Shown here: positions 3,569 to 30,382 of the stretch, one piece after another
Layout: each line of letters begins with the position of its first letter
How positions within the stretch are numbered: the stretch's first letter is position 1
Assembly (NCBI GenBank): GCA_019634625.1
Contig: JAHCBA010000004.1
Coordinates: 186,001-250,000, forward strand
DNA length: 64,000 nucleotides
Source of the DNA: Verrucomicrobiia bacterium
GTDB lineage: Bacteria; Verrucomicrobiota; Verrucomicrobiia; Limisphaerales; CAIMTB01
Reading direction: 5' to 3'
Program-made: the position numbers and the translations under genes
The notes under the pieces: model-generated
The model's database searches: none
Seen by the model: only the letters and a program-made list of their open reading frames with translations
What the model was told of the DNA's origin: nothing

Positions 3569-3693
3569 TACCTCCCGCCCGGGAGAATCATCGGTCCTCC
3601 GGCCAGTCCCCGGCTCCCGCCCACGTGACGGTCATCCTCCGTGCTCCGCCCCCCGCTTCCATCATTCCCTCCACTCACCGATCCCCTCCCTCC

Positions 3694-4839
3694 ATGGACT
3701 TCTCCTGGTCTCCCGAACAACGCGAACTGCTCGATGCCGTCCAGCGCTTCGCCGCCCAGCACCTCCCCAGCGACCTCATCGCCGATGACCGCCATGACCG
3801 CTTCAACCAGGAGGGCTGGAAGAAGTGCGGCGAGTTCGGCATCCAGGGCCTCCCCGTACCCCCCGAGTACGGCGGCCTCGGCGCCGATCCCCTCACCACC
3901 GTCGGCGCCCTCGAACGTCTCGGCTACGCCTGCAAGGACAATGGCCTCGTCTTCTCCATCAATGCCCACCTCTGGACCGTCGTCATGCCCCTGGTGACCA
4001 CCGGCACCGAAGACCAGAAACGCCGCTACCTCCCCGGCCTCTCCAACGGTTCCCTCATCGGCGCCAATGCCATGAGCGAACCCAATTCGGGTTCCGATGC
4101 CTTCAGCCTCGGTACCACCGCCCGACGCGACGGCCCAAACTACATCCTCAACGGTGGCAAAATCTGGGTCACCAATGGCCCCGTCGCCGATCTCTTCGCC
4201 GTCTATGCCACCCTCGACAAATCCCGCGGCGCCCAAGGCGTCACCGGATTCCTCGTCGAAAAGGGCACCCCAGGCATGGAAATCGGTCGCCGCATCGAAA
4301 AAATGGGCCTCCGTACCTCCCCCATGTCCGAGGTCTTCTTCCAGGACTGCCCCGTCCCCGCCGAAAACCGCCTCGGCGACGAGTTCGGAGGCGCCCACCT
4401 CTTCACCCGCTCCATGACCTGGGAACGCGGCTGCATCCTCGCCAATGCCGTCGGCTCCATGCAGCGCCTCCTCGAACTCTCCATCCGCCACGCCCGCACC
4501 CGGAAGCAATCCGGTCAGCCCATCGGCAAATTCCAGCATGTCTCCGGCCGCATCGTGGACATGAAACTCCGCCTCGAAACCGCCCGCCACCTCCTCTACC
4601 ACGGCGCCTGGGTCCGCTCCCAGGGCAAGGCCGGCTTCCTCGAGGCCGCCCTCGCCAAACTCCACATCTCCGACTGCTGGGTGAAATCCTGCGAGGACGC
4701 CATCCAGATCCACGGCGGCTATGGCTATACCGTCGAGGCCGAAATCGAACGCGAACTCCGCGACGCCATCGGCAGCCGCCTCTACTCCGGCACCAGCGAA
4801 ATCCAGAAGAACCTCGTCGCCTCCCTCCTCGGCCTCTGA
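3694..4839 (+). CDS. acyl-CoA dehydrogenase-family flavoprotein, possibly a prolyl-carrier-protein dehydrogenase
   Basis: 381 residues, the normal length for this FAD family. Family blocks: ANAMSEPNSGSDAFS (residues about 125-138), KIWVTNGPVADLFAVYA, FLVEKGTPGMEIG, QSGQPIGKFQHVSGRIVDMK and the C-terminal LYSGTSEIQKN. The usual JK-loop catalytic glutamate (YEGT in MCAD) is serine here (S365). A glutamate is present in helix G (TWERGC, E244), the position used by isovaleryl-CoA dehydrogenase and, as I recall, by prolyl-PCP dehydrogenases such as PigA/RedW/PltE. Those enzymes also carry a WE(K/R)GC-like block and SGTxxIQK. EtfB, EtfA, an Fe-S oxidoreductase, an adenylation domain and a carrier protein follow, which supports a carrier-bound substrate. 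An ordinary fatty-acid or branched-chain role remains possible. ATG 3694 gives the family N-terminus (MDFSWSPEQRELL). Confidence 0.85.
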   Translation: MDFSWSPEQRELLDAVQRFAAQHLPSDLIADDRHDRFNQEGWKKCGEFGIQGLPVPPEYGGLGADPLTTVGALERLGYACKDNGLVFSINAHLWTVVMPLVTTGTEDQKRRYLPGLSNGSLIGANAMSEPNSGSDAFSLGTTARRDGPNYILNGGKIWVTNGPVADLFAVYATLDKSRGAQGVTGFLVEKGTPGMEIGRRIEKMGLRTSPMSEVFFQDCPVPAENRLGDEFGGAHLFTRSMTWERGCILANAVGSMQRLLELSIRHARTRKQSGQPIGKFQHVSGRIVDMKLRLETARHLLYHGAWVRSQGKAGFLEAALAKLHISDCWVKSCEDAIQIHGGYGYTVEAEIERELRDAIGSRLYSGTSEIQKNLVASLLGL

Positions 4840-4865
4840 TGTTCCAACCCCACCCCCATCCCTCC

Positions 4866-4925: not shown

Positions 4926-5651
4926 ATGAAGATCCTCGTCCCCTTCAAACGCGTCCCCGACCCCGCCAGCGCCGGCGCCGCCCAATGGATCGTCAATTAC
5001 TTCGACGAAATCGCCGTCGAGGAGGCCCTCCGCATCCGCGAACGCGCCGAGGCCACCGAAATCGCTGCCGTCACCATCGCCCCCGCCGCCGCCGAGGAAC
5101 AACTCCGCACCGTCCTCGCCATGGGCGTGGATCGCGCCCTCCGCATCGATGATTCCCGCGACCTCGACCCCTCCACCGTCGCCCACCTCCTCGCCGCCGT
5201 CGTCCGCCGCGAACAACCCGACCTCGTCCTCATGGGCAAACAGGCCGTCGATGACGACGCCAGCCAGGTCGGCCCCATGCTCGCCGCCCATCTCGGCTGG
5301 CCCCAGGCAACCTTCGCTTCGAAGATCGAATTCCCCCCCGCCGCCGGCGAAGCGGTCTGCACCCGCGAAACCGACCGCGGCCTCGAAGTCATCGCCGTCC
5401 GCCTGCCCGCCGTCGTCACCACCGACCTCCGCCTCAACGAACCCCGCTACGTCTCCCTCCCAGGCCTCATGAAGGCCCGCCGCCGCCCGATCGATACCCT
5501 CGCCCTCGCGGACCTCGGCGTCGCCGCCGAACCCCGCACCACCGTACTCGATGTCCGCCCCACCGCCCGCCGCTCCGCCGGCATCCGCCTCGAATCCGTC
5601 GAGGACCTCCTCCAACGCCTCCGCGACCACGACCGCGTCCTTGATGCCTGA
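4926..5651 (+). CDS. etfB: electron transfer flavoprotein subunit beta
   Basis: 241 residues starting MKILVPFKRVPDPASAG, the standard EtfB N-terminus. EtfB binds AMP and forms a heterodimer with EtfA, whose FAD takes electrons from acyl-CoA dehydrogenase-type flavoproteins. Seen: DLVLMGKQAVDDDASQVGPM, the conserved AMP-loop region, and LPAVVTTDLRLNEPRY in the recognition-loop region. It sits directly between its likely electron donor (3694-4839) and etfA, whose start is 20 bases after this stop. Confidence 0.93.
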   Translation: MKILVPFKRVPDPASAGAAQWIVNYFDEIAVEEALRIRERAEATEIAAVTIAPAAAEEQLRTVLAMGVDRALRIDDSRDLDPSTVAHLLAAVVRREQPDLVLMGKQAVDDDASQVGPMLAAHLGWPQATFASKIEFPPAAGEAVCTRETDRGLEVIAVRLPAVVTTDLRLNEPRYVSLPGLMKARRRPIDTLALADLGVAAEPRTTVLDVRPTARRSAGIRLESVEDLLQRLRDHDRVLDA

Positions 5652-5670
5652 TCCCCTCCCCCGCCGCCCC

Positions 5671-6639
5671 ATGACCCGAAGCCTCATCCTCATCGAACAC
5701 GACGGACGCCAGCCCCGCGCCGCCTCCCTGCACGCGGTCTCCCTCGCCCGCGCCCTCGGCGGCGAATACGCCTTGCTGGTCCTCGGTTCCCAGATCACCG
5801 ACGTCGCCGCCGCCCTGCGTTCCTATGGCGCCTCGCGGATTCTCACCGCCGATCACCCCGCCCTCCAGGAACCCCTCGCCGATCGGTACGCCGCCGTGGT
5901 CGCCCAGGCCGCTTCCTCCTGGACCACCACCCACCTGCTCGGCACCACCTCCACCTTCTCCAAGGATGTCCTCCCCCGCGTCGCCGCCCTCCTCGACGCC
6001 CCCATGCTCACCGACGTCATGGCCTTCGAATCCCGCGACGACGGCCCGGTGTTCCATCGCCCCCTCAGCGCCGGCAGCCAGCGCGCCACCGTCCGCGTGA
6101 CCGGGGACCGCCTCGTCCTCACCGCCCGCGGCACCGCCTTCCCAATCCCAACCCCCGATCCCTCCGCCTCTCCCTCCCCCGTCGAACCCCTCCCGGTCGA
6201 TGCCGGTTCCCTTCCCTCCGGCACCCGGTTCGTCTCCCGCTCCCAACCCGCCTCCGGCCGCCCCGACCTCACCGAGGCCCGCGTCGTTGTCAGCGGCGGT
6301 CGGCCCCTCGGTGATGCCGCCGCCTTCGATCGCTTGATCGGCGGCCTCGCCGACGCCCTTGGCGGCGCGGTCGGTGCCACCCGCGGTGCCGTGGACGGCG
6401 GCATGGCCCCGAACGACTGGCAGGTCGGACAGACGGGCAAGGTCGTCGCCCCCGAACTCTATTTCGCCATCGGCATCTCCGGCGCCATCCAGCACGTCGC
6501 CGGCATGCAGGACTCCCGCGTCATCGTCGCCATCAACCGCGATCCCGAAGCCCCCATCTTCCAGGTGGCCACCTACGGCCTGGTCGGCGACCTCCACCAG
6601 ATCGTTCCCGACCTGCTCGCCCGCCTCGGCCCCCGTTAG
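5671..6639 (+). CDS. etfA: electron transfer flavoprotein subunit alpha
   Basis: 322 residues with the start at ATG 5671; an in-frame ATG at 5644 would overlap etfB and adds only proline/arginine-rich residues. The C-terminal FAD domain is clear: [10 protein letters not shown], then [55 protein letters not shown] and [16 protein letters not shown]. The protein accepts electrons from the upstream dehydrogenase and passes them to a quinone reductase. The next gene encodes a candidate partner, so the electron branch appears self-contained. Confidence 0.93.
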
Positions 6640-6699: not shown

Positions 6700-8730
6700 A
6701 TGGATGCCTTCCTCGCCAACGCCGTACCGACCCGCGAGGTCTTCGGCAACATCTCGCCGTGGATGCGCCTCGCATTCTACGCCCTGATGCTGGCCAGCAT
6801 GGGCTTCCTTGCCTGGCGCGTCGCCTGGCGGGCCCGGCTGTGGTGGCAGGGACGCCCGGGCGGCTTCGAACGCGACTGGCGCGTCTGGATCCGCCGCCTC
6901 GCCGTCTATGCCGCCGCCCAGAAACGCGTCCATCGCAAATCCCTCGGGGCCGTCCTCCATATCCTCCTCTTCAGCGGCTTCGTCGTCCTCACCATCGGCA
7001 CCACCCTCCTCGCCATCGCCGATCAGGGCCCGGTCAACTTCCACCAGGGCACCTACTACCTGCTCTACGAGCTGACCATGGACGTCTTCGGCGTGGCGCT
7101 CTGCGTCGGCTGTCTCCTCGCCCTCTACCGTCGCTGGGCCATCCGCCCCGCCAGTCTCGGCCACCAGCGCAGCGATTGGCTCGTCCTCGCCATCCTCCTT
7201 GCCCTCGGCATCACCGGCTTCCTCCTCGAGGCCCTCCGTCTCCGCTACACCGAAGTCGAACCCGCCATCGCCCGCTGGTCCGTCATCGGCCATCTCATCG
7301 ATCTCACCCTCCTCCGCGGCCTCGACCTCGAAACCTCCCGCACCTGGCACCTCTGGATGTGGTGGATCCATACCTTGCTCGTCGCCGGCCTCTTCGTCGC
7401 CTGGCCCGTCACCCGCTTCCTCCACGTCCTCACCGGCCCCCTCAACCTCGCCCTCCGGCCCGAACGCCATCCCGGCGCCCTCGCCCCCATCTCCATCGAG
7501 GAGGTCGAGGCCAGCGGCCAGACCGGCGTCGCCCAGATCACCGATTTCAACCGCCAGCAACTCCTCAGCCTCGATGCCTGCATGGAATGCGGCCGCTGCG
7601 AGGATGCCTGCCCCGCCTGGGCCACCGGAAAACCCCTCTCCCCCAAGGCCGTCGTCGTGGATCTTCGCGCCGCCATGGCCGCCCCCAACGCCAGCCCGCT
7701 CCATGGCGGCGTCATCCGCCCCGATACCCTCTGGGCCTGCACCATGTGCCAGGCCTGCGTCCACGAATGCCCCGTCCTCATCGGCCACGTCGATCTGATC
7801 GGCGACCTCCGCCGCAACCTCGTCGGTGAAGGCCAGATCGCCGGGCCCCCGGCCAAAGCCCTCTCGGTCACCTGGCGCCAGTTCAATCCCTACGGCCGCC
7901 CCGAGTCCGATCGCATGGCCTGGGCCGCCGGCCTCTCCGTCCCCACCGTCGAATCCCACCCCAACGCCGACTACCTCCTCTGGATCGGCTGCGCCGCCGC
8001 CTTCGATCCCCGTTCCCAGAAAGTCGCCCGCGCCCTCGTCCAGCTCCTCCAGCGGGCCGGTGTCTCGTTCGCCGTCCTCGGCAAACAGGAACGCTGCACC
8101 GGGGATTCAGCCCGGCGCCTCGGCGACGAATTCCTCTTCCAGTTCCTCGCCCGCGGGAATGTCGAAACCCTGAACCGCCATCAGGTGAAGAAAATCATCA
8201 CCTCCTGCCCCCACTGCCTCAATACGCTCAAGAACGAATACCCCCAGTTCGAGGGCACCTACCACGTCCACCACCATTCCCAGCTCCTCGCCGAACTGCT
8301 CCAGTCCGGACGCCTCTCCCCGGGCGACACCCCATCCTCCGACCCCGTCACCCTCCACGACCCCTGCTACCTCGCCCGCGTCAACGGCGAAACCGAAGCC
8401 CAGCGGACCGTCCTCCAAGCCCCCTCCCAGCCGCTCCGGGAAATGCCCCGCTGCGGCTCCAAAACCTTCTGCTGCGGCGCCGGCGGCGGACGCATGTGGT
8501 TCGATGACCCCCCCGCCCAGCGCGTCTCCACCCTCCGCGCCGCCGAGGCCGCCGCCACCGGCGCCAAAACCCTCGCCACCGCCTGCCCCTTCTGCCTCAA
8601 CATGATGTCCGACGCCGTCGCCCGCGGCGGCCCCGCCGAAGGCATGGCCGTCCTCGATATCGCCGAAATCCTTCTCCAACGTCAGCCGCCCTCCCATGGA
8701 CTGCCTCCTCTCCCACCTGCTCACCCGTAG
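6700..8730 (+). CDS. membrane Fe-S oxidoreductase, putative ETF:quinone oxidoreductase
   Basis: 676 residues. N-terminal nitrate-reductase-gamma-like membrane part with several hydrophobic segments (about 22-45, 84-108, 120-142, 160-180, 215-240). Then a two-cluster ferredoxin domain with CMECGRCEDACP (about 294-305) and CTMCQACVHECP (about 347-358). Finally a pair of cysteine-rich CCG-type domains (ITSCPHCLNTLKNEYPQ, FCCGAGGGRMWF, ACPFCLNMMSDA) as in heterodisulfide-reductase-like proteins. Proteins of this build next to etfAB are proposed ETF:menaquinone oxidoreductases that deliver electrons to the membrane quinone pool. The stop lies 35 bases inside the next gene, so expression of the two is likely coupled. 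Role assigned from architecture and position. Confidence 0.88.
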   Translation: MDAFLANAVPTREVFGNISPWMRLAFYALMLASMGFLAWRVAWRARLWWQGRPGGFERDWRVWIRRLAVYAAAQKRVHRKSLGAVLHILLFSGFVVLTIGTTLLAIADQGPVNFHQGTYYLLYELTMDVFGVALCVGCLLALYRRWAIRPASLGHQRSDWLVLAILLALGITGFLLEALRLRYTEVEPAIARWSVIGHLIDLTLLRGLDLETSRTWHLWMWWIHTLLVAGLFVAWPVTRFLHVLTGPLNLALRPERHPGALAPISIEEVEASGQTGVAQITDFNRQQLLSLDACMECGRCEDACPAWATGKPLSPKAVVVDLRAAMAAPNASPLHGGVIRPDTLWACTMCQACVHECPVLIGHVDLIGDLRRNLVGEGQIAGPPAKALSVTWRQFNPYGRPESDRMAWAAGLSVPTVESHPNADYLLWIGCAAAFDPRSQKVARALVQLLQRAGVSFAVLGKQERCTGDSARRLGDEFLFQFLARGNVETLNRHQVKKIITSCPHCLNTLKNEYPQFEGTYHVHHHSQLLAELLQSGRLSPGDTPSSDPVTLHDPCYLARVNGETEAQRTVLQAPSQPLREMPRCGSKTFCCGAGGGRMWFDDPPAQRVSTLRAAEAAATGAKTLATACPFCLNMMSDAVARGGPAEGMAVLDIAEILLQRQPPSHGLPPLPPAHP

Positions 8731-10327
8731 CGCCGCCCGTCATCCCGATCGCGATGCCGTCCGCATCGACGGCCAGGGCCTCACCTACTCCGAACTCGAC
8801 CGCCTCACCAACCGCGTCGCCCGCGCCCTCCGCGACCGCGGCATCCAGCGCGGCGACCGCGTCGGCATCTACGTCCACAAATCCTTCGCCTCCGTCATCT
8901 CGGTCTTCGGCATCCTCAAGGCCGGAGCCGTCTATGTCCCCCTCGACCCCAACGCCCCCGCCCGCCGCCTCGCCTACATCGCCCGCGACTGCGGCCTCAA
9001 AGCCCTCCTCACCGCCCCTTCCAAACTCGCCGCCCTCCCCGACCTCGCCGCCGAAGGTGCCCCCACCCGGCTCGCCCTCCTCACCAGCCCGTCCGACCCC
9101 GCCGCCACAGTTGCCCCGCCCGACTGGGACGTCGTGTCCTGGGAGTCGCTCCAGTCCCTCGATGACGCGGCGGTCGAGGAGTACCCGGCCATCGAAACCG
9201 ATCTCGCCTACATCCTCTACACCTCGGGTTCCACCGGCGCCCCCAAGGGCGTCATGATCTCCCACCGCACGATCTTCACGTTCCTCAATTGGTGCCAGAC
9301 GACCTTCGCCATGACCCACGAGGACCGGGTCACCAGCCAGGCCCCCCTCCACTTCGACCTCTCCACCTTCGACCTCTACGCCACCCTCCAGGCCGGCGGC
9401 ACCATCATCCTCGTCGGCGAACACCTCGCCGCCCTGCCGGTCAAACTGGTCGCCCTCCTCCAGGACGAACGGGTCACCATCACCTACCTCGTCCCCTCCA
9501 TCCTCTCCCTCATGCTCAACTACGGCAGCATGGCCAAACACGACCTCTCCCGTCTCCGCTGCGTCCTCTTCGCCGGCGAGGTCTTCCCCATGAAGTACCT
9601 CCGCCGCCTCGTCCAGACCCTCCCCCACGCCGCCTTCTACAACCTCTACGGCCCCACCGAAACCAACGTCTGCACCTACTACCGCGTCGCCCCCGACGAC
9701 GTCGCCCCCGAACGCGGCGATGCCCCCGTCCCCATCGGGCGCGCCTGCGAAAATGTCGAGGTCTTCGCCCTCGATGACCACGGACACCGCATCGTCGAGC
9801 CCGGCATCGAAGGCGAACTCTGGGCCCGCGGCTCCTGCGTCGCCCAAGGCTACTGGGGCGACCCCGAAAAGACCGCCCGCTCCTTCGTCCAGAGCCCCCT
9901 CCAATCCCTCTACCCCGACCCCGCCTACCGCACCGGCGATATCGTCACCCTCGCCCCCGACCGCCAGAACTGGCTCTACGTCGGACGCCGCGATCACATG
10001 GTCAAGTGCCGCGGCTACCGCATCGAACTCGGCGAAATCGAAACCGCCCTCTACCGCCATGACCAGGTCAAGGAGGCCGCCGTCATCGCCATCCCCGACG
10101 ACCTCCTCGGCAACCGACTCCGCGCCTACGTGGTCCTCGCCGACGGCTCCACCCTCACCGGCAGGGAACTCGAATCCTTCTGTTCCACCCACGTGCCGAA
10201 ATACATGGTCCCCGAACGCATCGAGATCTGTGCCCAGCTCCCCAAGACCTCCACCGGCAAGGTGGATCGCACCGCCCTCAACGCCGTCGCCACCCAACGG
10301 CCTGCCGTTCCTCCAACCCGCCCCTGA
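8696..10327 (+). CDS. stand-alone amino-acid adenylation domain (NRPS A domain), proline-like pocket
   Basis: 543 residues, one A domain with no condensation or carrier domain. Core motifs: AYILYTSGSTGAPKGVMISH (171-190), NLYGPTE (316-322), YRTGDIV (411-417), VGRRDHMVKCRGYRIELGEIE (split across 429-449) and TSTGKVDR (518-525) with Lys522. It activates an acid with ATP and loads it on a carrier protein, probably the one encoded next. Aligning by eye to the PheA pocket gives D221, L222, F225, Y264, L291, A293, L317, V325, C326, K522. I recall the L-proline pocket of PltF/RedM-type enzymes as DLLYLALVCK, which differs at one place. Exosortase loci also carry a different AMP-ligase (TIGR03098), an alternative family. 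Start overlaps the upstream gene by 35 bases. Confidence 0.9.
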   Translation: MDCLLSHLLTRSAARHPDRDAVRIDGQGLTYSELDRLTNRVARALRDRGIQRGDRVGIYVHKSFASVISVFGILKAGAVYVPLDPNAPARRLAYIARDCGLKALLTAPSKLAALPDLAAEGAPTRLALLTSPSDPAATVAPPDWDVVSWESLQSLDDAAVEEYPAIETDLAYILYTSGSTGAPKGVMISHRTIFTFLNWCQTTFAMTHEDRVTSQAPLHFDLSTFDLYATLQAGGTIILVGEHLAALPVKLVALLQDERVTITYLVPSILSLMLNYGSMAKHDLSRLRCVLFAGEVFPMKYLRRLVQTLPHAAFYNLYGPTETNVCTYYRVAPDDVAPERGDAPVPIGRACENVEVFALDDHGHRIVEPGIEGELWARGSCVAQGYWGDPEKTARSFVQSPLQSLYPDPAYRTGDIVTLAPDRQNWLYVGRRDHMVKCRGYRIELGEIETALYRHDQVKEAAVIAIPDDLLGNRLRAYVVLADGSTLTGRELESFCSTHVPKYMVPERIEICAQLPKTSTGKVDRTALNAVATQRPAVPPTRP

Positions 10328-10413
10328 TCCCGGGGGGAATCGCGAATGACGAATCGAGCATCCCGAATCGTATCTCCCCCCGTGCATCCCGATTCCCGTA
10401 AACGTCCCTTCCC

Positions 10414-10659
10414 ATGAACATCCAAAGCGAAATCGAACAGTTCATCGTCCATGAGATCCTGACCGACGGACGCCCGTCCCTCGACCCCCAGGAACCCCTC
10501 ATGACCAACGGCACCCTCGACTCCCTCGGCACCCTGCGCCTCATCACTTTCCTCGAGGAACGCTTCGGTGTCCGCATCGGCGATGGCGAACTCGGCGAGG
10601 ACAACTTCGGCAACCTCGAAAACATCGCCCGCTTCGTCGCCTCCAAACAGTCCCAGTAA
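10414..10659 (+). CDS. acyl/peptidyl carrier protein
   Basis: 81 residues with the four-helix carrier-protein pattern. Ser37 in the GTLDSLGTL block is the expected phosphopantetheine attachment site. The second half ([14 protein letters not shown], then [13 protein letters not shown]) resembles the small discrete carriers that pair with stand-alone prolyl A domains. It follows the adenylation gene by 86 bases and is the only carrier protein in the window, so it is the likely acceptor of the activated acid and the likely substrate carrier for the flavoprotein at 3694-4839. A tandem repeat array follows its stop. Confidence 0.9.
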
Positions 10660-10700
10660 CCCGCCCCGCCGCCAGCCACCCTCTCCCCGGAGGAACCTCT

Positions 10701-10925: not shown

Positions 10926-11609
10926 ATGCCTCCCGATCCCCTCCCCACCGAAGGTCATCGCTCCGCCCTCTGCGCCCGTCTCGTCCCCGCCCTCTACGGG
11001 ATGACCCGCAACGGCATCGTCCGCTCCTCCCTTAGAAGCCTCGTCCTTCGCGCCGAGCGCGGCGGCGCCTTCTCCCGGACCATCCGCGACCTCTTCCGCA
11101 CCTTCCACGGCGTGGACGTCGGCCTCTACACCGTCGGCCCCTGCCACGTCCCTCCCGGCAATCTTCTCCCCGGCACGACCGTCGGCCGCTACTGCTCGAT
11201 CTATTACACGGTTCGCGCCCTGTCCCACGATCGCCCTTGGAACTCCCGACTCCTCCACGACCTCTACGGCGACGAAGCCCTCGACGACTCCCCCGCCGCT
11301 CCCGGCGCCGGCACCCCCGCCGGTCTCCGCATCGGCAACGACGTCTTCATGGGGCACAACGTCATCATCCTCCCCTCCGTTCGCGAAGTGGGTGACGGCG
11401 CCGTCATCGGTGCCGGCTCCGTCGTCCAGTCCTGCGTCCCTCCCTACGCCATCGTCACCGGCAACCCCGCCCGCGTGGTCAAGTTCCGCTTCTCCAAACC
11501 CAGGATCGCGGAACTCCTGGAATCGAAATGGTGGAACAAAAGCCTCGCCGAACTCGGTCGCTCCATCGACGAGTTCCGCGTCCCCCTCGAAGGCGGCCCG
11601 CTCCGCTGA
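10926..11609 (+). CDS. left-handed beta-helix (hexapeptide) acyltransferase, copy 1
   Basis: 227 residues of the hexapeptide-repeat acyltransferase superfamily (CatB/VatD-like). A helical N-terminal third is followed by the beta-helix coils: [20 protein letters not shown], where the histidine of LSHD is a candidate catalytic residue. Next come [37 protein letters not shown] and the closing [15 protein letters not shown]. Such enzymes transfer acetyl or other acyl groups to sugars. The next gene is a clear paralogue with the same N-terminal block ([20 protein letters not shown] here). Placed after an A domain and carrier protein, one or both could take an acyl group from the carrier; that is inference. 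Confidence 0.88.
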
Positions 11610-11668
11610 GGCCCCGCGCTTGCCCCTTCCCGCCTCCCGCCTCCCTCCCAGCCCCTGCCCCCCTCCCC

Positions 11669-12373
11669 GTGAACGAAGGAAGGAAAACCCCCGTCTTCTC
11701 CAGCCTCGCCCTCCGGCTCTACCCGCGCCTGGGCGTCGAATCCATCCGCGGCGCCCTGCGCCAACTCGCTCTCACCCTCGAGGGTGGCCCCGCCCGTTCC
11801 CTCACCCTCCGCGAAATCTTCCGCCGCTTTCATCGCGTCGAGGTCGGCCTCCACACGGCCGGCCCCTGCCGCCTCCACCCCAAGGTCTTTCACGTCGGTA
11901 CCGCCTTCGGCCGCTACGTCTCCGTCGCCTCAACCGTCCGCACCTTCACCCGCAACCACACCATCTACACCAAGTCCACCAGCGGCTTCTTTGACAACCC
12001 CGCCGCCGGCATCGTCAAGTCGGACCTCGTGTCGTGGGGCCGCCTCGTCATCGGCCACGGCGCCTGGCTCGGTCACCAGGCCATCCTCCTCCCCCCCGCC
12101 GAACGGATCGGCGAAGGCGCCATCGTCACCGCCGGCTCCGTCGTCTATACCAACGTCCCCCCTTACGCCATCGTCAGCGGTTTCCCCGCCCGCGTGATCG
12201 GTTACCGCTACCCGAAACCCGTCATCGAGGAACTCCTCGCCTCCCGCTGGTGGGAACTTTCCCCCTCCAGACTCGCCGCCCAGGCCGATCGCTTCCGTAC
12301 CCTGCTCAGCACCCAACCCGACGCGCCAGCCCACCCGATCCCCGCACCCCCTTCCCATCCCTCCTCCCCATGA
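11669..12373 (+). CDS. left-handed beta-helix (hexapeptide) acyltransferase, copy 2
   Basis: 234 residues from a GTG start at 11669; the open frame upstream of it overlaps the previous gene and is not protein-like. It is a tandem paralogue of the preceding gene: FRRFHRVEVGLHTAGPCRLHP matches [21 protein letters not shown]. Next are GTAFGRYVSVASTVRTFTRN, then VIGHGAWLGHQAILLPPAER, GEGAIVTAGSVVYTNVPPY and AIVSGFPARVIGYRYPKP. The first copy has LSHDRP at the putative active-site coil; this one has FTRNHT, so substrate use may have diverged. The stop overlaps the methyltransferase start by four bases. Confidence 0.85.
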   Translation: MNEGRKTPVFSSLALRLYPRLGVESIRGALRQLALTLEGGPARSLTLREIFRRFHRVEVGLHTAGPCRLHPKVFHVGTAFGRYVSVASTVRTFTRNHTIYTKSTSGFFDNPAAGIVKSDLVSWGRLVIGHGAWLGHQAILLPPAERIGEGAIVTAGSVVYTNVPPYAIVSGFPARVIGYRYPKPVIEELLASRWWELSPSRLAAQADRFRTLLSTQPDAPAHPIPAPPSHPSSP

Positions 12374-13122
12374 TCAACGACGCCCACAACACCGCCGCGG
12401 CCATCTATTACAACCGCGACCGCCCCTCCATCGTCGCCCTCATCAAACCCGGCCCCCATGTCATCCTCGACCTCGGATGCGGCTCCGGGGCCGTCGGACG
12501 CAAACTCATGGAGACCGGCAAGGCCTCCGAAATGATCGGCGTCGAGATCTTCCCGACCGCCGCCGAAGAAGCCTCCCGGCATTACGCCAGGGTCCATTGC
12601 GGCGACATCGAGGAAATGTCCCTCCCCTACGGACAGCACTTCGACTACGTCCTCTGCGGCGACATCCTCGAACACCTCAAGAACCCCTACTCCGTCGTCG
12701 CCCGCATCCCCGGCTGGCTCAAGCACGACGGCCGCTTCATCTGCAGCGTCCCCAACGTCCGCCATTGGCGCGTCCTCCGCGATGTCATCGTTCGCGGCGA
12801 GTGGGAATACCGCGAGGCGGGCATCATGGACCGCACCCATCTCCGCTTCTTCACCCGCCGCTCCTGCTACCGCATGCTGGAGGAGGCCGGCTTCACCGTG
12901 GAACGGCACCGCATGCTCATCACCGGACGCCGCTACATCGCCCTCAACGCCGTGACCTTCGGACTCTTCCAGGAGTTCTTCGGCTCCCAGATCGTCGCCC
13001 TCGCCGCCAGGCGCGCACCTGCCCCTTCCCCTCAACTCCCGGCCCCCACCCCCGACCAGCCGTCTCCCTCAAACGCACCGGAATCCCCGTCCCAACCGGA
13101 ATCGAAAAGTTCCGCCGGATGA
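12370..13122 (+). CDS. class I SAM-dependent methyltransferase
   Basis: 250 residues. SAM-binding motif I is VILDLGCGSGAVGRKLM, followed by the acidic end of strand 2 (IGVEIFP), HCGDIEEM and FDYVLCGDILEHLKNPY. The layout matches methyltransferases of the Methyltransf_11/23 groups common in O-antigen and capsule clusters. The last 35 residues are proline/serine-rich and probably disordered. Start ATG overlaps the upstream stop (ATGA). It may methylate a sugar or acyl substituent made by its neighbours. Confidence 0.88.
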   Translation: MINDAHNTAAAIYYNRDRPSIVALIKPGPHVILDLGCGSGAVGRKLMETGKASEMIGVEIFPTAAEEASRHYARVHCGDIEEMSLPYGQHFDYVLCGDILEHLKNPYSVVARIPGWLKHDGRFICSVPNVRHWRVLRDVIVRGEWEYREAGIMDRTHLRFFTRRSCYRMLEEAGFTVERHRMLITGRRYIALNAVTFGLFQEFFGSQIVALAARRAPAPSPQLPAPTPDQPSPSNAPESPSQPESKSSAG

Positions 13123-13211: not shown

Positions 13212-14693
13212 ATGGGAATCAAACGCTCGGCCCTGAAAGGCTCCGCCGTCGTCGCCCTCGGCGAAGGCCTCGGCTTCGCCGCGTCCTTCATCCGCAACAT
13301 GATCCTCGCCCGGGCCCTCCCCAAGGCGGACTTCGGGATCGCGGCGACGTTCGCCATGGTGATCACCCTCCTCGAGGTCTCCGCCAAAATGGGCATCGCC
13401 CGTTTCCTCGTCCGGGACAAGGAGGGCAACGAACCCGAATTCCTCGCCGCCGCCCACTTCCTTCATGGCGTCGCCGCCCTCGCCAGTTGCGCCCTCATCG
13501 CCGCCCTCGCATGGCCCATCGCCCACCTCTTCGGCATCCGCGAGCACGCCACCGCCCTCCTGGCCCTCGCCCTCATCCCCCTCCTCCACGGCTTCGGGCA
13601 CCTCGATGTCCGCCGCTTCGAACGGACCATGCGCTTCGGACCCGCCACCTGGATCGAAGCCGGCCCCCAACTGGTCATCACCGCTCTCGCCTGGCCCGTC
13701 GCCGTCTGGCTCGGCGATTACCGTTCCGTCCTTCTTCTCCTCGTCCTCAAGGCCCTCCTTAGCTGGACCGGGTCCTTCCTCTTCGCCGAACGCCCCTACC
13801 GCTGGCTGTTCCACCGCGAATACGTCACCCGCATGCTCCGCTTCGGCTGGCCCCTCATCCTCAACGGCTTCCTCATGTTCGCCGTCATGCGTGGCGACCA
13901 GTTCGTCGTCGCCACCTTCTATCCCATGGAGGAACTCGCCGCCTTCGCCGCCGCCGCCTCGCTCGCCCTCGCCCCCATCCTCCTCTTCAGCCGCGTCTTC
14001 GCCTCGGTCATGCTTCCCGTCCTCGCCAAGGCCCAGGATGACCCCGCCGTCTTCGAACGCCGGTACCGCCTCATCCTCGCCTTCATGAGCGCCTTCTCCG
14101 CCGCCTACGCCATGGGCCTCATCGTCGCCGCCGAACCCCTGATGCAGTTCGCCTTCGGCTCCAAATACGCCGGCGCCGGACTCCTCCTCGCCTGGCTCGC
14201 CGCCGCCAATGCCCTCCGCAACGTCCGCCGCGCCACGGCCATCGCTGCCATCGCCAAGGGCGACTCCGTCAACGAACTCTATTCCAATCTCTCCGGCGGC
14301 GTCGCCCTCCTCCCCGCCCTCGCCATCGGTTTCCTTCGCGACCCCGTCTGGATGATCGCCGCTGTCGGGCTCCTCGGCGAATTCGTCGCCTGCTGGGTCG
14401 CCTTCCGCCGCCTCTCCCGCCGCGACGGCGTCCCCCTCGCCACCTCCCTTGTCCCGTCGGGTCTCGTCCTCCTCATCATTGCCGCCGCTGGCGCCCTTCA
14501 CCTTGCCCTCGAACACCAACCCTGGCCCATGCCCGTCATGCTCCTCCTCGGCATCGCCGCCGCCCTGACCGGTTCCGTCGCCGTCCTCCTGATCCTTCCC
14601 GCCTCCCGCCAGCAGATCCTCCTCGCCTGGCGCCGGGGACGCGCCCGCGGCTGGAAATCCCTCCTCTTCCCCCCAAAGCCCGCCGCCCCGTGA
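13212..14693 (+). CDS. polysaccharide flippase of the MOP/Wzx type
   Basis: 493 residues, almost entirely transmembrane, of the MATE/Wzx-like polysaccharide export superfamily. It starts MGIKRSALKGSAVVALGEG, typical of these proteins, and then has ILARALPKADFGIAATFAMV, the first paired helices. It contains about 12-14 hydrophobic segments, for example IALAWPIAHLFGI-like (here IAALAWPIAHLFGI) and LILNGFLMFAVMRGDQFVV. Wzx flippases move lipid-linked repeat units across the inner membrane. No Wzy polymerase or glycosyltransferase is visible in the window, so the rest of the assembly machinery must lie elsewhere. Confidence 0.87.
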   Translation: MGIKRSALKGSAVVALGEGLGFAASFIRNMILARALPKADFGIAATFAMVITLLEVSAKMGIARFLVRDKEGNEPEFLAAAHFLHGVAALASCALIAALAWPIAHLFGIREHATALLALALIPLLHGFGHLDVRRFERTMRFGPATWIEAGPQLVITALAWPVAVWLGDYRSVLLLLVLKALLSWTGSFLFAERPYRWLFHREYVTRMLRFGWPLILNGFLMFAVMRGDQFVVATFYPMEELAAFAAAASLALAPILLFSRVFASVMLPVLAKAQDDPAVFERRYRLILAFMSAFSAAYAMGLIVAAEPLMQFAFGSKYAGAGLLLAWLAAANALRNVRRATAIAAIAKGDSVNELYSNLSGGVALLPALAIGFLRDPVWMIAAVGLLGEFVACWVAFRRLSRRDGVPLATSLVPSGLVLLIIAAAGALHLALEHQPWPMPVMLLLGIAAALTGSVAVLLILPASRQQILLAWRRGRARGWKSLLFPPKPAAP

Positions 14694-15188: not shown

Positions 15189-16655
15189 ATGCGCCCCCTC
15201 CCCACTCTCGCGATTCTCTTCCTCAGCGCCCTCACTGCACCCGCCGCGCTCCCCCACGGCCCCGCCCCCACCACCCCCCAACGCTCCGTCTCCCAGCACG
15301 GCATCACCTGGACCTTCGATCGCGATGTTCCCGTCGGACGCTTCATCAACGGCGACTTCTACGTCGTTGGCCCCGTCACCGTCGTTGCCCTCGACCCCAG
15401 GACCCTCGTCGGCCCCGAGGTCCCCGAATCCGAACTCGGCACCCGCGAGAAAGCCCGCGTCCGAAATGCCACCTGGGTCCGGAACGGCTCGATGCGCAAT
15501 CCTCCTGCCCGACCCGAAGTCGCCTACGACAGCGGTGTCCGGAACTATTTCAAACCCGACCTCCTCGCCGTCCCTCCCATCCGTCTCCAGCCCGGCGATC
15601 GCCTCGTCTCCACCATCAGCTTCAAGGTCGGTGAAGAACCCAACTTCCCCTACCACGGCGGTCGCGGCTCCCGCGAACACCACGACAACAGCCCCATCCG
15701 CGTCGCCGCCGTCCTCACCTGCCTCGCCCAAGCCCAGCCTGCCGACGCCTTCCGCCCCTCCTACGGCGACTCAGAAGCGAGGATCTATCTCGGCCGCAAC
15801 CTGCGCCGCGACCTTCTTCCACGCCTGCCGCCCCCGCCGGAAACCCCCGACCTCGATGTCTGGCTCCGGGTCTTCGAGCGCCCCTGGATCAACACCTGCT
15901 TCTTTGGCTTCGATCAACCCATGGAGAACATGCCGCACTACGGCCAATGGGTCGGGCAGGCCCAGTCCATGGGTGGCCTCCTCCTCATGCTCGATCTCGA
16001 CCCCGCGAAAAAGGAGCAGCTCATGATCCGCATGGTCCAGGTCGGCATCGATTACTGGGGCCTCGTCCGCAACGGCCACCGCGGCTGGCCCGGCTGGGGA
16101 GGACACGGCAGCGGCCGGAAGTTTCCCATCGTCCTGGCCGGGCTCCTGCTCGGGGACCCCGAAATGGCCGCCCCCTCCCGCACCTTCCCCAAGGTCGAGT
16201 TCGGCGAGGATAACCAGACCCTCTACGGCGAAGGCTGGACCGGCGCCCGTGCCCTCTTCGCCGGCCACTCCGGCATCCAACGCGCCTCCGGCACCGCCGA
16301 ACGCCCCCACTGGGGTCCCTACGAGCATCTTCACCCCTCCCAATGGACCGCCCAACAGCGCCAAAGCGAAGCCTATCGCCGCGCCAATACCAGCAGTTCC
16401 TGGGTCGGACAGGCCCTCACCCTCCGTCTCCTCCGCGCGGAACAAGCCTGGGATCACCCCGCCTTCTTCGACTACGTGGACCGATGGATGACCGATCCCA
16501 ACGACCGCGATCACCGCCTCGAAATCATGAGGCATCACCCGGGGTTCAACCTCGATGACCGCGCCCGCCACACCCACCAGGGCAACGCCTGGGAACCCTT
16601 CGTCCGCTCCATGTGGGACCGCCACGCCTCACCTCCCCCCTACTCCCCCCGATGA
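15189..16655 (+). CDS. secreted protein of unknown function
   Basis: 488 residues with a signal peptide (MRPLPTLAILFLSALTAPAA). A ribosome binding site AGGA lies five bases before the ATG. I do not recognise a family. Visible: a beta-rich first part (GITWTFDRDVPVGRFINGDF, VVGPVTVVALDP), then a helical part rich in Trp, Gly and His (MENMPHYGQWVGQAQSMGG, GHRGWPGWGGHGSGRKFP) suggestive of an alpha/alpha-toroid fold as in some polysaccharide lyases. The C-terminal end has RHTHQGNAWEPFVRSMW. The stop overlaps the CapA-like gene by four bases, which ties it to the envelope locus. Confidence 0.8.
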   Translation: MRPLPTLAILFLSALTAPAALPHGPAPTTPQRSVSQHGITWTFDRDVPVGRFINGDFYVVGPVTVVALDPRTLVGPEVPESELGTREKARVRNATWVRNGSMRNPPARPEVAYDSGVRNYFKPDLLAVPPIRLQPGDRLVSTISFKVGEEPNFPYHGGRGSREHHDNSPIRVAAVLTCLAQAQPADAFRPSYGDSEARIYLGRNLRRDLLPRLPPPPETPDLDVWLRVFERPWINTCFFGFDQPMENMPHYGQWVGQAQSMGGLLLMLDLDPAKKEQLMIRMVQVGIDYWGLVRNGHRGWPGWGGHGSGRKFPIVLAGLLLGDPEMAAPSRTFPKVEFGEDNQTLYGEGWTGARALFAGHSGIQRASGTAERPHWGPYEHLHPSQWTAQQRQSEAYRRANTSSSWVGQALTLRLLRAEQAWDHPAFFDYVDRWMTDPNDRDHRLEIMRHHPGFNLDDRARHTHQGNAWEPFVRSMWDRHASPPPYSPR

Positions 16656-17785
16656 CCACCGTCCTGATCGCCGCTGATATCTGCCCCATCGAGGGCAACC
16701 TCCCCTTCTTCCTCCGCGCCGACGCCGACAGCCTCTTCCATGATCTCCTCCCCGAGTTCAAACAGGCCGACCTCGTCGTCGCCAACCTCGAATGCCCCCT
16801 CATCGAAGCCCCCTCCCCGATCCTCAAAACCGGCCCCACCTTCGGCGCCCCCCCCGCCTGCATCGAGGCCATCCGCGCCGGTCACATCGACACCCTCTGC
16901 CTCGCCAATAATCACATCCTCGACCACGGCGCCGCCGGCCTGAAAAGCACCCTCGAAGCCTGCGCCCGCGCCGGCATCCACACCGTCGGCGCCGGCGAAA
17001 ATCGTCAGGCCGCCCGCCGCATCCTGATCCGCCAGGCAGGCTCGAAACGCATCGGCCTCCTCGCCGTCGCCGAACACGAGTTCTCCATCGCCGGACGCGA
17101 CTCCTGGGGCGCCAATCCCATCGACCTCATCGACTTCGTCCGCAACGTCCGCGAGCACCGCGCCGACTTCGATTACCTCATCGTCCTCGTCCACGGCTCG
17201 GCCGAGTTCCATGCCCCCACCCCCCGCATCCGCGACACCTGCCGCTTCATGGTCGAAATGGGCGCCAACGCCGTCATCGTCCAGCACCCCCACATGCTCG
17301 GCGGACACGAACTCTACCAGGACGGCCACATTGTCTATGGCCAGGGCGCCCTCGTCATGGATGAAGCCCTCTACCGCCCCCTCAAATCCTTCCACCAGGG
17401 CGTCGTCGTCCGCCTCGCCATCCCCGACCAGGGCCCGTCCACCATGGACCTCCTCCCCTTCACCCAGTCCGACCCCGTCCCCGGCGCCCGTCGCATGCCC
17501 GGGGACCAGGCCCGCGCCTTCCTGGAAACCCTGGCCGCGCGCTCCGCCAACCTCGCCAATGATGCCCTTGTCGAAGCCCAGTGGGTCGAGTTCTGCGAAA
17601 AACGCCGCCACGGCTATATCAGCTCCTTCCTCGGCCATGGCGGCATCCTCCGACGCCTCAACCGCAAAGGCTGGCTCGAACGCTTCCTCTACGGCCCCCG
17701 CCGCCTCGCCGGCGCCCGCAACCTGGTCTCCTGCGAAACCCATCGCGAAGCCCTCCAAACCCTCTTCGACCGCCGCCTCGTCTGA
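16652..17785 (+). CDS. CapA/YwtB-family metallophosphatase-fold protein
   Basis: 377 residues of the CapA family, first known from poly-gamma-glutamate capsule synthesis and common in exopolysaccharide clusters. Metal-site blocks: VLIAADICPIEGN, ADLVVANLECPLIE, CLANNHILDHGAAGLKSTLE, YLIVLVHGSAEFHAPTP and AVIVQHPHMLGGHELYQDG. The normal order of this fold is preserved and no signal peptide is evident, so it may act in the cytoplasm or be tethered by partners. The start overlaps the preceding stop (ATGA). Confidence 0.88.
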   Translation: MTTVLIAADICPIEGNLPFFLRADADSLFHDLLPEFKQADLVVANLECPLIEAPSPILKTGPTFGAPPACIEAIRAGHIDTLCLANNHILDHGAAGLKSTLEACARAGIHTVGAGENRQAARRILIRQAGSKRIGLLAVAEHEFSIAGRDSWGANPIDLIDFVRNVREHRADFDYLIVLVHGSAEFHAPTPRIRDTCRFMVEMGANAVIVQHPHMLGGHELYQDGHIVYGQGALVMDEALYRPLKSFHQGVVVRLAIPDQGPSTMDLLPFTQSDPVPGARRMPGDQARAFLETLAARSANLANDALVEAQWVEFCEKRRHGYISSFLGHGGILRRLNRKGWLERFLYGPRRLAGARNLVSCETHREALQTLFDRRLV

Positions 17786-17791: not shown

Positions 17792-18691
17792 ATGAAAGGC
17801 ATCCTCCTCGCCGGTGGCGCCGGCTCCCGCCTCTACCCGCTCACCCTCGTCGCCAGCAAACAACTCCAGCCGGTGTACGACAAACCCATGGTGTACTACC
17901 CGCTCACCACCCTCATCGACGGCGGCATCCGCGACATCTGCCTCATCTCCACTCCCGCCGACCTCCCCCGCTTTCAGCAACTCCTCGGCAATGGCTCCCG
18001 TCTCGGCCTCTCCATCGAGTACCGCGAACAACCCCGCCCCGAAGGCATCGCCCAGGCCTTCCTCATCGCCGCCTCCTTCGTCGGCAACGACCCCGTCGCC
18101 CTCATCCTCGGCGATAACATCTTCTACGGCGGCGACACCTTCCAACGTGCCTTCGCCGAATTCCGCGACGGCGCCACGATCTTCGGGTACCACGTCCACG
18201 ATCCCCAACGCTACGGCGTCGTCGAATTCGATCCCCACGGCCGCGCCATCTCCATCGAGGAAAAACCCCGTCACCCCCGCAGCAGCTACGCCGTCCCCGG
18301 CCTCTACCTCTACGACAACGAGGTGCTCGCCATCGCCCGCGCCCTCCGCCCCAGCGCCCGCGGCGAACTCGAAATCACCGACGTCAACCTCGCCTATCTC
18401 CATCGCCAACGCCTGCGCGTGCATCGCCTCGCCCGCGGCTTCGCCTGGCTCGATGCCGGCACCAGCACCAGCCTCCACGAAGCCAGCGCCTACGTGCAAA
18501 CCATCGAACGCCGCACCGGCATCAAAATCGGTTGCCCCGAGGAAGCCGCCTTCCGCCGCGGCTTCCTCCCCGAACCCGCCCTCGCCTCCCTGCTCGAACA
18601 CCTCCCCCTCTGCGAATACCGCACCTACCTCGAAGGCCTCCTCTCCGAGGCCCGCCGCGAACCCTCACCCGGCCACACCCAAAGCCCCTAG
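17792..18691 (+). CDS. rfbA: glucose-1-phosphate thymidylyltransferase
   Basis: 299 residues. MKGILLAGGAGSRLYPLTL is the nucleotide-binding loop, followed by SKQLQPVYDKPMVYYPLTTL, both diagnostic for RmlA. ALILGDNIFYGG and GVVEFDPHGRAISIEEKP are also family-typical. It makes dTDP-glucose from glucose-1-phosphate and dTTP, the first step of dTDP-rhamnose and related sugars. Genes for the reductase and dehydratase follow; an rfbC epimerase gene is not in the window. Confidence 0.95.
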   Translation: MKGILLAGGAGSRLYPLTLVASKQLQPVYDKPMVYYPLTTLIDGGIRDICLISTPADLPRFQQLLGNGSRLGLSIEYREQPRPEGIAQAFLIAASFVGNDPVALILGDNIFYGGDTFQRAFAEFRDGATIFGYHVHDPQRYGVVEFDPHGRAISIEEKPRHPRSSYAVPGLYLYDNEVLAIARALRPSARGELEITDVNLAYLHRQRLRVHRLARGFAWLDAGTSTSLHEASAYVQTIERRTGIKIGCPEEAAFRRGFLPEPALASLLEHLPLCEYRTYLEGLLSEARREPSPGHTQSP

Positions 18692-18778: not shown

Positions 18779-19648
18779 ATGCGCGTCCTCCTCATCGGCG
18801 CCAAGGGTCAAGTCGGCTGGGAACTCCAACGCAGCCTCGCCCCCTGGACCGACCTGATCGCCGTGGACTTCCCGGAAATCGACCTCGCCCGGCCCGATAC
18901 CATTCGCCACTGGCTCGATCGCGCCCAACCCGGCGCCATCATCAATGCCGCCGCCTACACCGCCGTGGACCAGGCCGAATCCGACCTCGACCGCGCCACC
19001 GCCATCAATGCCATCGCCCCAGGCCTCCTCGCCGAGGAAGCCCGGCTACGCGGCGCCTGGCTGGTCCATTACTCGACCGACTACGTCTTCCCCGGCACCA
19101 CCACCCGCCCGTACGCCGAATCCGACCCCGCCGGCCCGGTCAATCACTACGGCCATTCCAAACTGGCCGGGGACCTCGCCGTCCAGGCCGCCAACGGACG
19201 CCACCTGATCTTCCGGCTCTGCTGGGTGTACGGACTTCGCGGTCGCAACTTCCTCCTCACCCTGCAACGCCTCGCCCGGGAACAGGAACGCCTGCGCGTC
19301 GTCCATGACCAGTTCGGCAGCCCCACCTGGTGCCGCCCCATCGCCGACGCCACCGCCCTCGCCCTCCACACCGCCACCAACAGCCCGGACCCGGACGCCT
19401 TCTCCGGCCTCTACCACCTCGCCTGTTCCAGCCACACCTCCTGGCACGGCTTCGCCGAAGCCATCGTCGCCCGCCTCCCCGAATCCGAGCGCCGCTGCCT
19501 CGCCGTCGATCCCATCCCCTCCGCCGAATACCCCACCCCCGCCCGCCGGCCCGCCTGGTCCGTCCTCGACTGCACCAAACTCCATCGCACCTTCGGCCTC
19601 CGTCTCCCCCCCTGGGACCACACCCTCGCCCTCGCCTTGGAACGGTAA
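18779..19648 (+). CDS. rfbD: dTDP-4-dehydrorhamnose reductase
   Basis: 289 residues. MRVLLIGAKGQVGWELQRSL is the NAD(P)-binding start, then DLARPDTIRHWL, INAAAYTAVDQAESD, VHYSTDYVFPGT (with the Tyr/Lys pair in YAESDPAGPVNHYGHSKLAG) and FRLCWVYGLRGRNF. It performs the last reduction to dTDP-L-rhamnose. The C-terminus contains RRPAWSVLDCTKL, also family-typical. Confidence 0.93.
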   Translation: MRVLLIGAKGQVGWELQRSLAPWTDLIAVDFPEIDLARPDTIRHWLDRAQPGAIINAAAYTAVDQAESDLDRATAINAIAPGLLAEEARLRGAWLVHYSTDYVFPGTTTRPYAESDPAGPVNHYGHSKLAGDLAVQAANGRHLIFRLCWVYGLRGRNFLLTLQRLAREQERLRVVHDQFGSPTWCRPIADATALALHTATNSPDPDAFSGLYHLACSSHTSWHGFAEAIVARLPESERRCLAVDPIPSAEYPTPARRPAWSVLDCTKLHRTFGLRLPPWDHTLALALER

Positions 19649-19707
19649 TCCCCCATCGGATCGCCCGGCGGCCCAGACTCCACGAGGCCACACCTTCCCA
19701 TACCCTC

Positions 19708-20760
19708 ATGAATCTCCTCGTCACAGGCGGCGCCGGCTTCATCGGCAGCCACCTGCTCCGCCACCTGCTCCGCCAGCCTGAAATCACCCGCCTCGTCAAC
19801 CTCGACTGTCTCACCTACGCCGGCCGCGCGGAAAACCTCGATGGCCTCGATCGCGATCCCCGTTACACCTTCGAACCCGTCGATCTCCGCGAAAAAACCG
19901 AAGTCCGCCGCGTCATCCTCGATCACGCCATCGACCACGTCCTGCACCTCGCCGCCGAGAGCCATGTGGACCGTTCCATCGCCGGACCCGACGCCTTCAT
20001 CCACACCAACATCCTCGGCACCTATCACCTCCTCGAAGCCTGCCGCGACGCCTGGCTCTCCGCCCCCGGTCAACTGCGCCCTCGCCCCGGCCCCTCCCCC
20101 CGCTTCCACCACGTCAGCACCGACGAGGTGTACGGCAGTCTCGGTCCCGGACAGTTCTTCACCGAATCCTCCCCCTACGCCCCCAACTCCCCGTACTCCG
20201 CCAGCAAGGCCTCCAGCGATCTGCTCGTCCGAGCCTACCACCGCACCTACGGCCTCCCCTCCGTCCTCACCCACTGCTCCAATAATTACGGCCCCCGCCA
20301 GTTCCCGGAAAAACTCATCCCCGTCGTCATCCAGTCCGCCCTCGAACGACGCCCCATTCCGGTGTACGGCGACGGACAGTACGTCCGCGACTGGCTCTAC
20401 GTCGCCGACCACGCCTCCGCCCTCTGGACCGTCCTCCAACACGGGCGCAATGGCGAATCCTACACCGTCGGCGGACGGAACGAATGGCCCAACCTCCGCA
20501 TCGTCGAGCGCATCTGCGACCTCATCGACGAGTTCCGCCCCGACCTCGGCGGCCATTCCCGCAACCTCATCGCCTTCGTCAAGGACCGCCCCGGACACGA
20601 CCGCCGCTATGCCATCGACTGCTCCAGGATCGAAAAGGAGCTTGGCTGGAAGCCGGCCCATACCTTTGATGTCGGCCTGCGCGAGACCGTCCGCTGGTAC
20701 CTCGATCACCAGGACTGGGTGCGCTCCGCGCTTCAAGCATCCGCCAAGGCCTGCCGATAA
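19708..20760 (+). CDS. rfbB: dTDP-glucose 4,6-dehydratase
   Basis: 350 residues from ATG 19708. MNLLVTGGAGFIGSHLLRHL is the Rossmann start; AAESHVDRSIAGPDAFIHTN, VSTDEVYGSLG, PYSASKASSDLLVRAYHRTYG (YxxxK catalytic pair) and CSNNYGPRQFPEKLIPV are diagnostic of RmlB. It converts dTDP-glucose to dTDP-4-keto-6-deoxyglucose. The open frame continues upstream into rfbD but that part is not family-like. Confidence 0.95.
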   Translation: MNLLVTGGAGFIGSHLLRHLLRQPEITRLVNLDCLTYAGRAENLDGLDRDPRYTFEPVDLREKTEVRRVILDHAIDHVLHLAAESHVDRSIAGPDAFIHTNILGTYHLLEACRDAWLSAPGQLRPRPGPSPRFHHVSTDEVYGSLGPGQFFTESSPYAPNSPYSASKASSDLLVRAYHRTYGLPSVLTHCSNNYGPRQFPEKLIPVVIQSALERRPIPVYGDGQYVRDWLYVADHASALWTVLQHGRNGESYTVGGRNEWPNLRIVERICDLIDEFRPDLGGHSRNLIAFVKDRPGHDRRYAIDCSRIEKELGWKPAHTFDVGLRETVRWYLDHQDWVRSALQASAKACR

Positions 20761-30338: not shown

Positions 30339-30382
30339 CCTAAGGGTCCTGAGTGGGTGCAACATCAATTCAAGGTAAGCAT

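Follow-up and report, generated by a model that had tools for sequence, protein, structure and literature searches.

What is a free-standing amino acid adenylation enzyme doing inside a surface polysaccharide locus? Carrier-bound pyrrole formation, the kind of chemistry in which such enzymes take part, is familiar from antibiotics and pigments. The question is raised here by a stretch of 64,000 nucleotides from a Verrucomicrobiia bacterium of the order Limisphaerales (GenBank assembly GCA_019634625.1, contig JAHCBA010000004.1, positions 186,001 to 250,000, forward strand), which was analysed as a whole and is hereafter called the window. Its stand-alone adenylation (A) domain, encoded at 8696-10327, is accompanied by genes for a peptidyl carrier protein (PCP), a protein of the acyl-CoA dehydrogenase (ACAD) fold, an electron transfer flavoprotein (ETF) and its membrane partner EtfD, followed by polysaccharide genes and an exosortase (Table 1). 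A sequence-only reading of the window had proposed that this domain activates proline in the manner of pyrrole-forming pathways, a proposal now supported by the pocket code, the profile and fold of PltF, the ACAD and PCP partners and the association between code class and ACAD. The adenylation enzyme itself belongs to a known family; what is new is that it occurs together with polysaccharide and exosortase genes and with an ETF/EtfD chain.

A stand-alone adenylation domain with a proline code

The gene is intact and encodes 543 residues, comprising full AMP-binding and AMP-binding_C domains, and its product exceeds the cut-off of TIGR01733. The domain is free-standing, with no fused condensation, thiolation or thioesterase domain, the PCP being encoded separately downstream. 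An open reading frame (ORF) at 8597-10387 on the minus strand was discarded as a shadow of this gene, the full domain match and the pattern of G+C at third codon positions both lying in the plus frame.

Kadlcik et al. (2013) reported the code L(L/F)YLALVC for stand-alone L-proline domains and VQ(Y/F)IAHVV for modular ones (PMC3874040). The window code, DLFYLALVCK, is a member of the stand-alone set DL(L/F)YLALVCK and is clearly unlike the modular code, as had been anticipated. Alignment to relatives places D221, L222, F225, Y264, L291, A293, L317, V325, C326 and K522 at the code positions that the sequence-only reading had assigned to them. Its claim that one position departs from the stand-alone code (F in place of L) needs correction, since the window code equals the published consensus, which is matched in full (PMC3874040). 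Across an 11-member alignment (42-62% identity to the window protein), nine of the ten code residues show no variation and F225 shows hardly any, a conservation that, judged from the aligned sequences, is far above chance expectation.

When the PDB was searched with a profile built from 11 members, the top single A domain was the L-proline:PCP ligase PltF (6o6e/7thq), with 482 bits, the runner-up among single A domains reaching 387; the LgrA entries listed higher represent the sum of two A domains, each reaching at most 372.5 bits. The AlphaFold2 model of the domain (mean pLDDT 84.1, pTM 0.83) also found its best fold matches in 7thq and 6o6e (TM-score 0.85 by query and about 0.9 by target), both annotated as trapped complexes of PltF with a proline adenosine vinylsulfonamide inhibitor. 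On these comparisons, the protein is very probably a free-standing L-proline adenylation enzyme, from which we infer that proline is the actual substrate. The first step, proceeding from proline through prolyl-AMP to prolyl-S-PCP, is predicted with high confidence.

Carrier protein and probable prolyl dehydrogenase

The DSL motif of the PCP, the site of phosphopantetheine attachment, is retained across the aligned relatives. Upstream of the A domain, the ACAD, whose first Met in register with its homologues is codon 24 (position 3694), is closest among solved structures to the prolyl-acyl carrier protein dehydrogenase 4irn (464.6 bits), ahead of 6cxt (342 bits), which is Bmp3 (PMC10849742), and 5zw0 (307 bits), while ordinary ACADs reach at most 282 bits. 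The catalytic Glu, E267 in the motif MTWERG, is aligned with MEWERG and stands at the isovaleryl-CoA dehydrogenase position, opposite the residue that represents the known catalytic base in the 4irn construct; this Glu is common to ChmH, AnaB and Bmp3 (PMC10849742). The top NCBIfam models are PigA (NF053553, 430.6 bits for a cut-off of 500) and RedW (NF045652, 406.5 bits for a cut-off of 650), both below cut-off, and by score the window ACAD is of the same subfamily as these two proteins and the equivalog of neither.

In the known route, proline is adenylated, loaded on a carrier and oxidised by an ACAD to pyrrole (PMC10849742), and the window ACAD very likely oxidises prolyl-S-PCP in a similar way. 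With regard to the degree of oxidation, 4irn is the best solved match not only of the window ACAD but also of those from a halogenase-linked locus (L008) and from an ETF-less genome of another family of the same order (G486). Because the three share this homologue, similarity fits a pyrrole and a pyrroline equally, and resemblance to 4irn was discarded as an indicator of pyrroline.

Conservation in relatives

From 84,980 species genomes scanned, 80 relatives were kept for comparison; the counts given below are over 81 relatives, namely these 80 and genome G126, and they ignore kinship and include some cut contigs. Pocket codes vary by clade. A prolyl-type ACAD is encoded within 4 kb in 24 of the 32 members of the class with Y at the fourth code position, compared with 1 of the 49 others (Fisher p ~1e-12). 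In a quick maximum-likelihood tree, the A domains form two sets of 42, separated with 99% support in the Shimodaira-Hasegawa-like approximate likelihood ratio test, and all ACAD-linked rows fall on one side; the window domain lies on that side, grouped with G705 and two Anaerolineae (96%).

The gene order is conserved beyond the family. G486 carries in succession genes for a GNAT protein, a beta-helix protein, Wzx, the ACAD, the A domain, the PCP, HX1, HX2 (both hexapeptide acyltransferase homologues) and PGA_cap, and further on a VPDSG protein, the sugar dehydrogenase UGD, an exosortase and a tetratricopeptide repeat (TPR) protein. G487 agrees with this order across its short contig, and in both genomes the orthologue of the window Wzx lies immediately upstream of the ACAD and a polysaccharide pyruvyl transferase is encoded nearby. 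In Chloroflexota, the relatives of the A domain neighbour Trp-halogenase-like flavoproteins, Acyl_transf_3 proteins, glycosyltransferases, a sulfotransferase or Wzm/Wzt-type genes. Glycosyltransferase matches were obtained at 11 of the 33 proline-clade loci and 4 of the 48 others, the queries being drawn from the proline clade and hence biased in its favour.

Several related cassettes deserve mention in their own right. Trp-halogenase-like genes lie beside the prolyl A domain in L005, L008, L012, L013, L015 and L051; it is possible that halogenase-linked loci form halogenated pyrroles, and some of them add Acyl_transf_3 and glycosyltransferase or exporter genes. A sister cassette (L003:11831-14151, with orthologues in L014, L021, L022, L024, L029 and L056) has the code D(M/I)(F/M)Y(L/M)GVQCK and combines ACAD, A-domain and PCP genes with an ornithine cyclodeaminase-family gene, often together with a HupE/UreJ-like membrane protein. 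As ornithine cyclodeaminase produces proline, this cassette may represent another proline-derived pathway. Lastly, a clade of mostly stand-alone A domains from Gemmatimonadota, Acidobacteriota and other phyla bears the code DLFF(L/M/I)CLIAK (L027, L028, L030-L033, L035, L036, L038, L039, L041, L042, L044, L053, L054 and L063); carrier proteins are encoded near several of them, and a prolyl ACAD near none.

Proposed electron transfer from the dehydrogenase

The genes for ETF-beta, ETF-alpha and the EtfD-like protein are placed between those of the ACAD and the A domain. The EtfD-like protein comprises a NarI-like membrane part, a 4Fe-4S domain and two CCG domains, with four transmembrane windows, and matches 9ojn (Iron-sulfur-binding reductase) with 326.8 bits over two stretches. 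It displays the architecture described for EtfD, in which a membrane part of the b-heme type is combined with two [4Fe-4S] sites and a pair of CCG domains (PMC13083937). In the genome, which is 97% complete, one ACAD and one ETF pair were found, all within this cluster. Because the only ETF genes and the only ACAD are co-encoded, the electrons probably reach the quinone pool and not O2, and coupling of the window ACAD to this pool through ETF and EtfD is judged likely.

Similar associations recur in two other genomes. In G512, genes for ETF-beta, a second ETF domain, EtfD and the ACAD directly follow the A domain, in a different order, and no further ACAD or ETF was found in that genome. In G705, the end of an EtfD gene precedes the A domain at the contig end, and neither ETF nor ACAD was found in the assembly. 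None of the 80 fetched relatives has ETF or EtfD genes adjoining the A domain, except for a weak EtfD-like match (24%) in L045. Prolyl dehydrogenases are probably coupled to quinones by ETF/EtfD in some members and to O2 in others, and the presence or absence of these genes beside related enzymes offers a natural comparison of O2 and respiratory-chain coupling. Within this cluster, G512 also encodes a second A domain (L100:7701-9558, pocket GYYPTA..MRVK), split over two frames and located before the PCP.

The polysaccharide locus

The features of the cassette and of the genes that follow are collected in Table 1. HX2 contains the motif RTFTRNH, in which a catalytic-type His is retained in all four orthologues compared, and its sequence makes it the likeliest candidate for acyl transfer from the PCP to a glycan. 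A TPR protein is also encoded downstream of the cassette, with the exosortase and the VPDSG-CTERM protein. The ORF at 19841-20818 was rejected as a low-complexity shadow, the true gene being in the frame of the RmlB-like dehydratase.

Table 1. Genes of the adenylation cassette and of the adjoining polysaccharide/exosortase locus, with positions in the window.
Feature	Position	Strand	Basis
ACAD-fold prolyl-carrier dehydrogenase/oxidase	3625..4839	+	best PDB match 4irn
ETF beta subunit, canonical ACAD-docking loop RLNEPRYVSLPGLMKARRRPID	4926..5651	+	PF01012; best match Paracoccus ETF 1efp
ETF alpha subunit (ORF start; true start probably near 5650)	5551..6639	+	PF01012, PF00766
EtfD-like membrane ETF:quinone oxidoreductase	6700..8730	+	Pfam; best PDB match 9ojn
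Stand-alone adenylation domain, predicted L-proline:carrier-protein ligase, pocket DLFYLALVCK	8696..10327	+	Pfam, code alignment, profile, fold
Carrier protein (PCP/ACP), phosphopantetheine DSL motif (TLDSLG)	10414..10659	+	PF00550 above cut-off
HX1, left-handed beta-helix (hexapeptide) acyltransferase homologue	10926..11609	+	domain matches
HX2, hexapeptide acyltransferase homologue; true start uncertain, about 11600-11670	11528..12373	+	domain matches
Class I methyltransferase (domain begins near 12440)	12034..13122	+	PF13489
Wzx-type polysaccharide flippase	13212..14693	+	PF13440/PF01943
PGA_cap (CapA-like) protein	16613..17785	+	PF09587
RmlA-like nucleotidyltransferase	17792..18691	+	PF00483
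RmlD-like dTDP-rhamnose synthase	18779..19648	+	PF04321
RmlB-like dehydratase (domain begins near 19715)	19330..20760	+	PF16363
UDP-glucose/NDP-sugar dehydrogenase (UGD)	20815..22104	+	TIGR03026 above cut-off
GalE/RmlB-like NDP-sugar epimerase or dehydratase	22138..23145	+	PF01370
Exosortase, nearest VPDSG-CTERM-specific XrtC model, below cut-off	25629..26681	+	PF09721; TIGR04151 211.8 bits (cut-off 300)
VPDSG-CTERM sorted protein	30353..31096	+	PF18205

Proposed pathway and alternatives

In the pathway that we propose, the adenylation enzyme would make prolyl-AMP and load proline onto the PCP, after which the ACAD would oxidise prolyl-S-PCP to a pyrrole-2-carboxyl (or 1-pyrroline-carboxyl) thioester. 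The reduced flavin of the ACAD would be re-oxidised by the ETF-beta/alpha pair, and the EtfD-like membrane protein, with its predicted iron-sulfur and heme sites, would relay the electrons to the quinone pool. From the PCP, the ring-acyl group would then be transferred, most likely by HX2, onto a sugar of the exopolysaccharide that the Wzx/Rml/UGD/exosortase genes produce. Taken as a whole, from proline activation to exopolysaccharide acylation, this pathway appears reasonably probable, and gene context tips the balance slightly towards transfer of the proline-derived ring to a glycan. That a carrier-bound proline-derived pyrrolyl group can be moved onto a sugar hydroxyl is known from clorobiocin (PMC11218499). 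More tentatively, a surface polysaccharide may exist that bears a pyrrole or pyrroline which an ETF/EtfD-coupled prolyl dehydrogenase forms on a carrier protein and a hexapeptide-repeat acyltransferase attaches, the ring being halogenated in Chloroflexota; if so, the Chloroflexota relatives would attach halogenated pyrroles to polysaccharides through Acyl_transf_3 enzymes.

With regard to the substrate, the A domain might activate another amino acid, such as a substituted proline, pipecolate or D-alanine, as part of an esterification cassette of the DltA/DltC type. L-proline enzymes can change specificity through few pocket substitutions, as in LmbC (PMC3874040), the gene lies within an envelope-polymer locus as in dlt-type systems, and the carrier protein has a weak DltC match. 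However, the code is exactly that of L-proline, and of the three proline contacts in the CcbC model (V202, A274 and V306) the last two are also present in the window domain, which has Leu in place of V202, as does the stand-alone consensus (PMC3874040); moreover, a dehydrogenase partner would be functionless with alanine, and we regard activation of another amino acid as very unlikely. It is extremely improbable that the protein belongs, as a variant, to the exosortase-A-associated acyl-CoA ligase family (ligase_PEP_1, TIGR03098), as the exosortase locus and a score of 362.4 bits for this model might suggest. That score is far under the cut-off of 592.35 bits, for which reason membership was rejected, and is lower than the TIGR01733 score, while the Nitrospira relative found near an exosortase (L050) has a different pocket (DYYPTTMRVK) and clusters away from the window domain in the tree.

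Activation of proline is therefore retained, and it is on the later steps that several points weigh against our proposal. In G486, G487 and G448 the ACAD is encoded in genomes with no detectable ETF, and ETF is therefore not obligatory for this ACAD family. The nearest solved homologue yields pyrroline and not pyrrole, so that aromatisation is a matter of prediction, and the characterised relative of 4irn is described as an O2-using oxidase. The ETF-less genomes and this oxidase would both fit a window ACAD that uses O2, as described prolyl-carrier oxidases do, with ETF and EtfD serving a different dehydrogenase; this is nevertheless quite unlikely, given that no second ACAD was found in the genome, that the ETF has the ACAD-docking loop, and that ETF/EtfD genes recur beside the A domain or ACAD in G512, and that of EtfD in G705. 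As to the acceptor, no halogenase or known pyrrolyl transferase was found within the window, and the catalytic-His region of the HX1 family varies between orthologues, with no conserved His; HX2 is the better transferase candidate because it keeps the His that HX1 lacks. The A-PCP-HX genes could make a free small molecule, with the pyrrol(in)yl-PCP feeding a natural product and the polysaccharide genes as functionally unlinked neighbours. The experimentally known relatives named in the cited papers, of prodigiosin, coumermycin, clorobiocin and chalkophomycin, all serve small molecules (PMC3874040, PMC10849742), and ORFs of the size of long modular non-ribosomal peptide synthetases (NRPS) or polyketide synthases (PKS) lie near the A domain in some related loci. 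Yet no PKS, condensation or thioesterase gene was found around the window cassette, a second family of the order preserves the cassette within the same polysaccharide/exosortase setting, and its Chloroflexota counterparts are flanked by glycosyltransferases or exporters, so that a small-molecule product seems unlikely, though it merits serious consideration.

Acylation of a polysaccharide remains the reading that we prefer. In the open-licence PMC literature, neither a precedent for a pyrrole-acylated exopolysaccharide nor a link of exosortase loci to a proline A domain was found. A conserved cassette in an exopolysaccharide locus, with acyltransferases encoded beside the PCP, suggests that surface polysaccharides with aromatic acyl groups form a class so far unrecognised.

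Other features of the window

A dispersed element resembling repetitive extragenic palindromic sequences, an intergenic repeat on CGGAGGGACGAGCTCCGCGAGTCC, occupies 10696-10921 between the PCP and HX1 genes as 2.7 tandem 85-bp copies, and occurs again at 4863, 15009, 42019 and 51019. The motif has 526 copies in the genome (at most two mismatches) and none when read backwards. On the minus strand, the window also encodes a 2178-residue protein (51074-57610) with three lamin-tail domains, a CotH kinase domain and PKD/PA14 parts, and, at 37039-40862, an adjacent gene pair of DUF1501 and PSCyt2/PSD1 (DUF1549/DUF1553) type. No Rfam match was found in the window.

Comparison with known systems

The window A domain resembles PltF and PigI, of pyoluteorin and prodigiosin formation, in being stand-alone, in its proline code and in its PCP and ACAD partners, but it is about 35% identical to PltF, and the polysaccharide/exosortase locus around it contains neither PKS nor NRPS. 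Likewise, the ACAD shares subfamily, by score, and catalytic Glu site with 4irn, Bmp3 (6cxt), 5zw0, PigA, RedW and PltE (PMC10849742), and differs from 4irn-type ACADs in being the sole one of its genome and co-encoded with ETF and EtfD. Like the ETF:menaquinone oxidoreductase EtfD (9ojn), the EtfD-like protein joins a membrane part of the heme-b type to two 4Fe-4S sites and a pair of CCG domains; whereas known EtfD serves fatty-acid beta-oxidation, the window gene neighbours a prolyl-carrier dehydrogenase. The closest parallel to the proposed transfer is the clorobiocin system (CloN3/N4/N5 with CloN1/N2/N7), in which a pyrrole-2-carboxyl group is likewise formed on a carrier and moved to a sugar hydroxyl (PMC11218499). 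There, the acceptor is a small antibiotic, whereas for the window we presume a polymeric acceptor and, as transferase, a hexapeptide-repeat protein.

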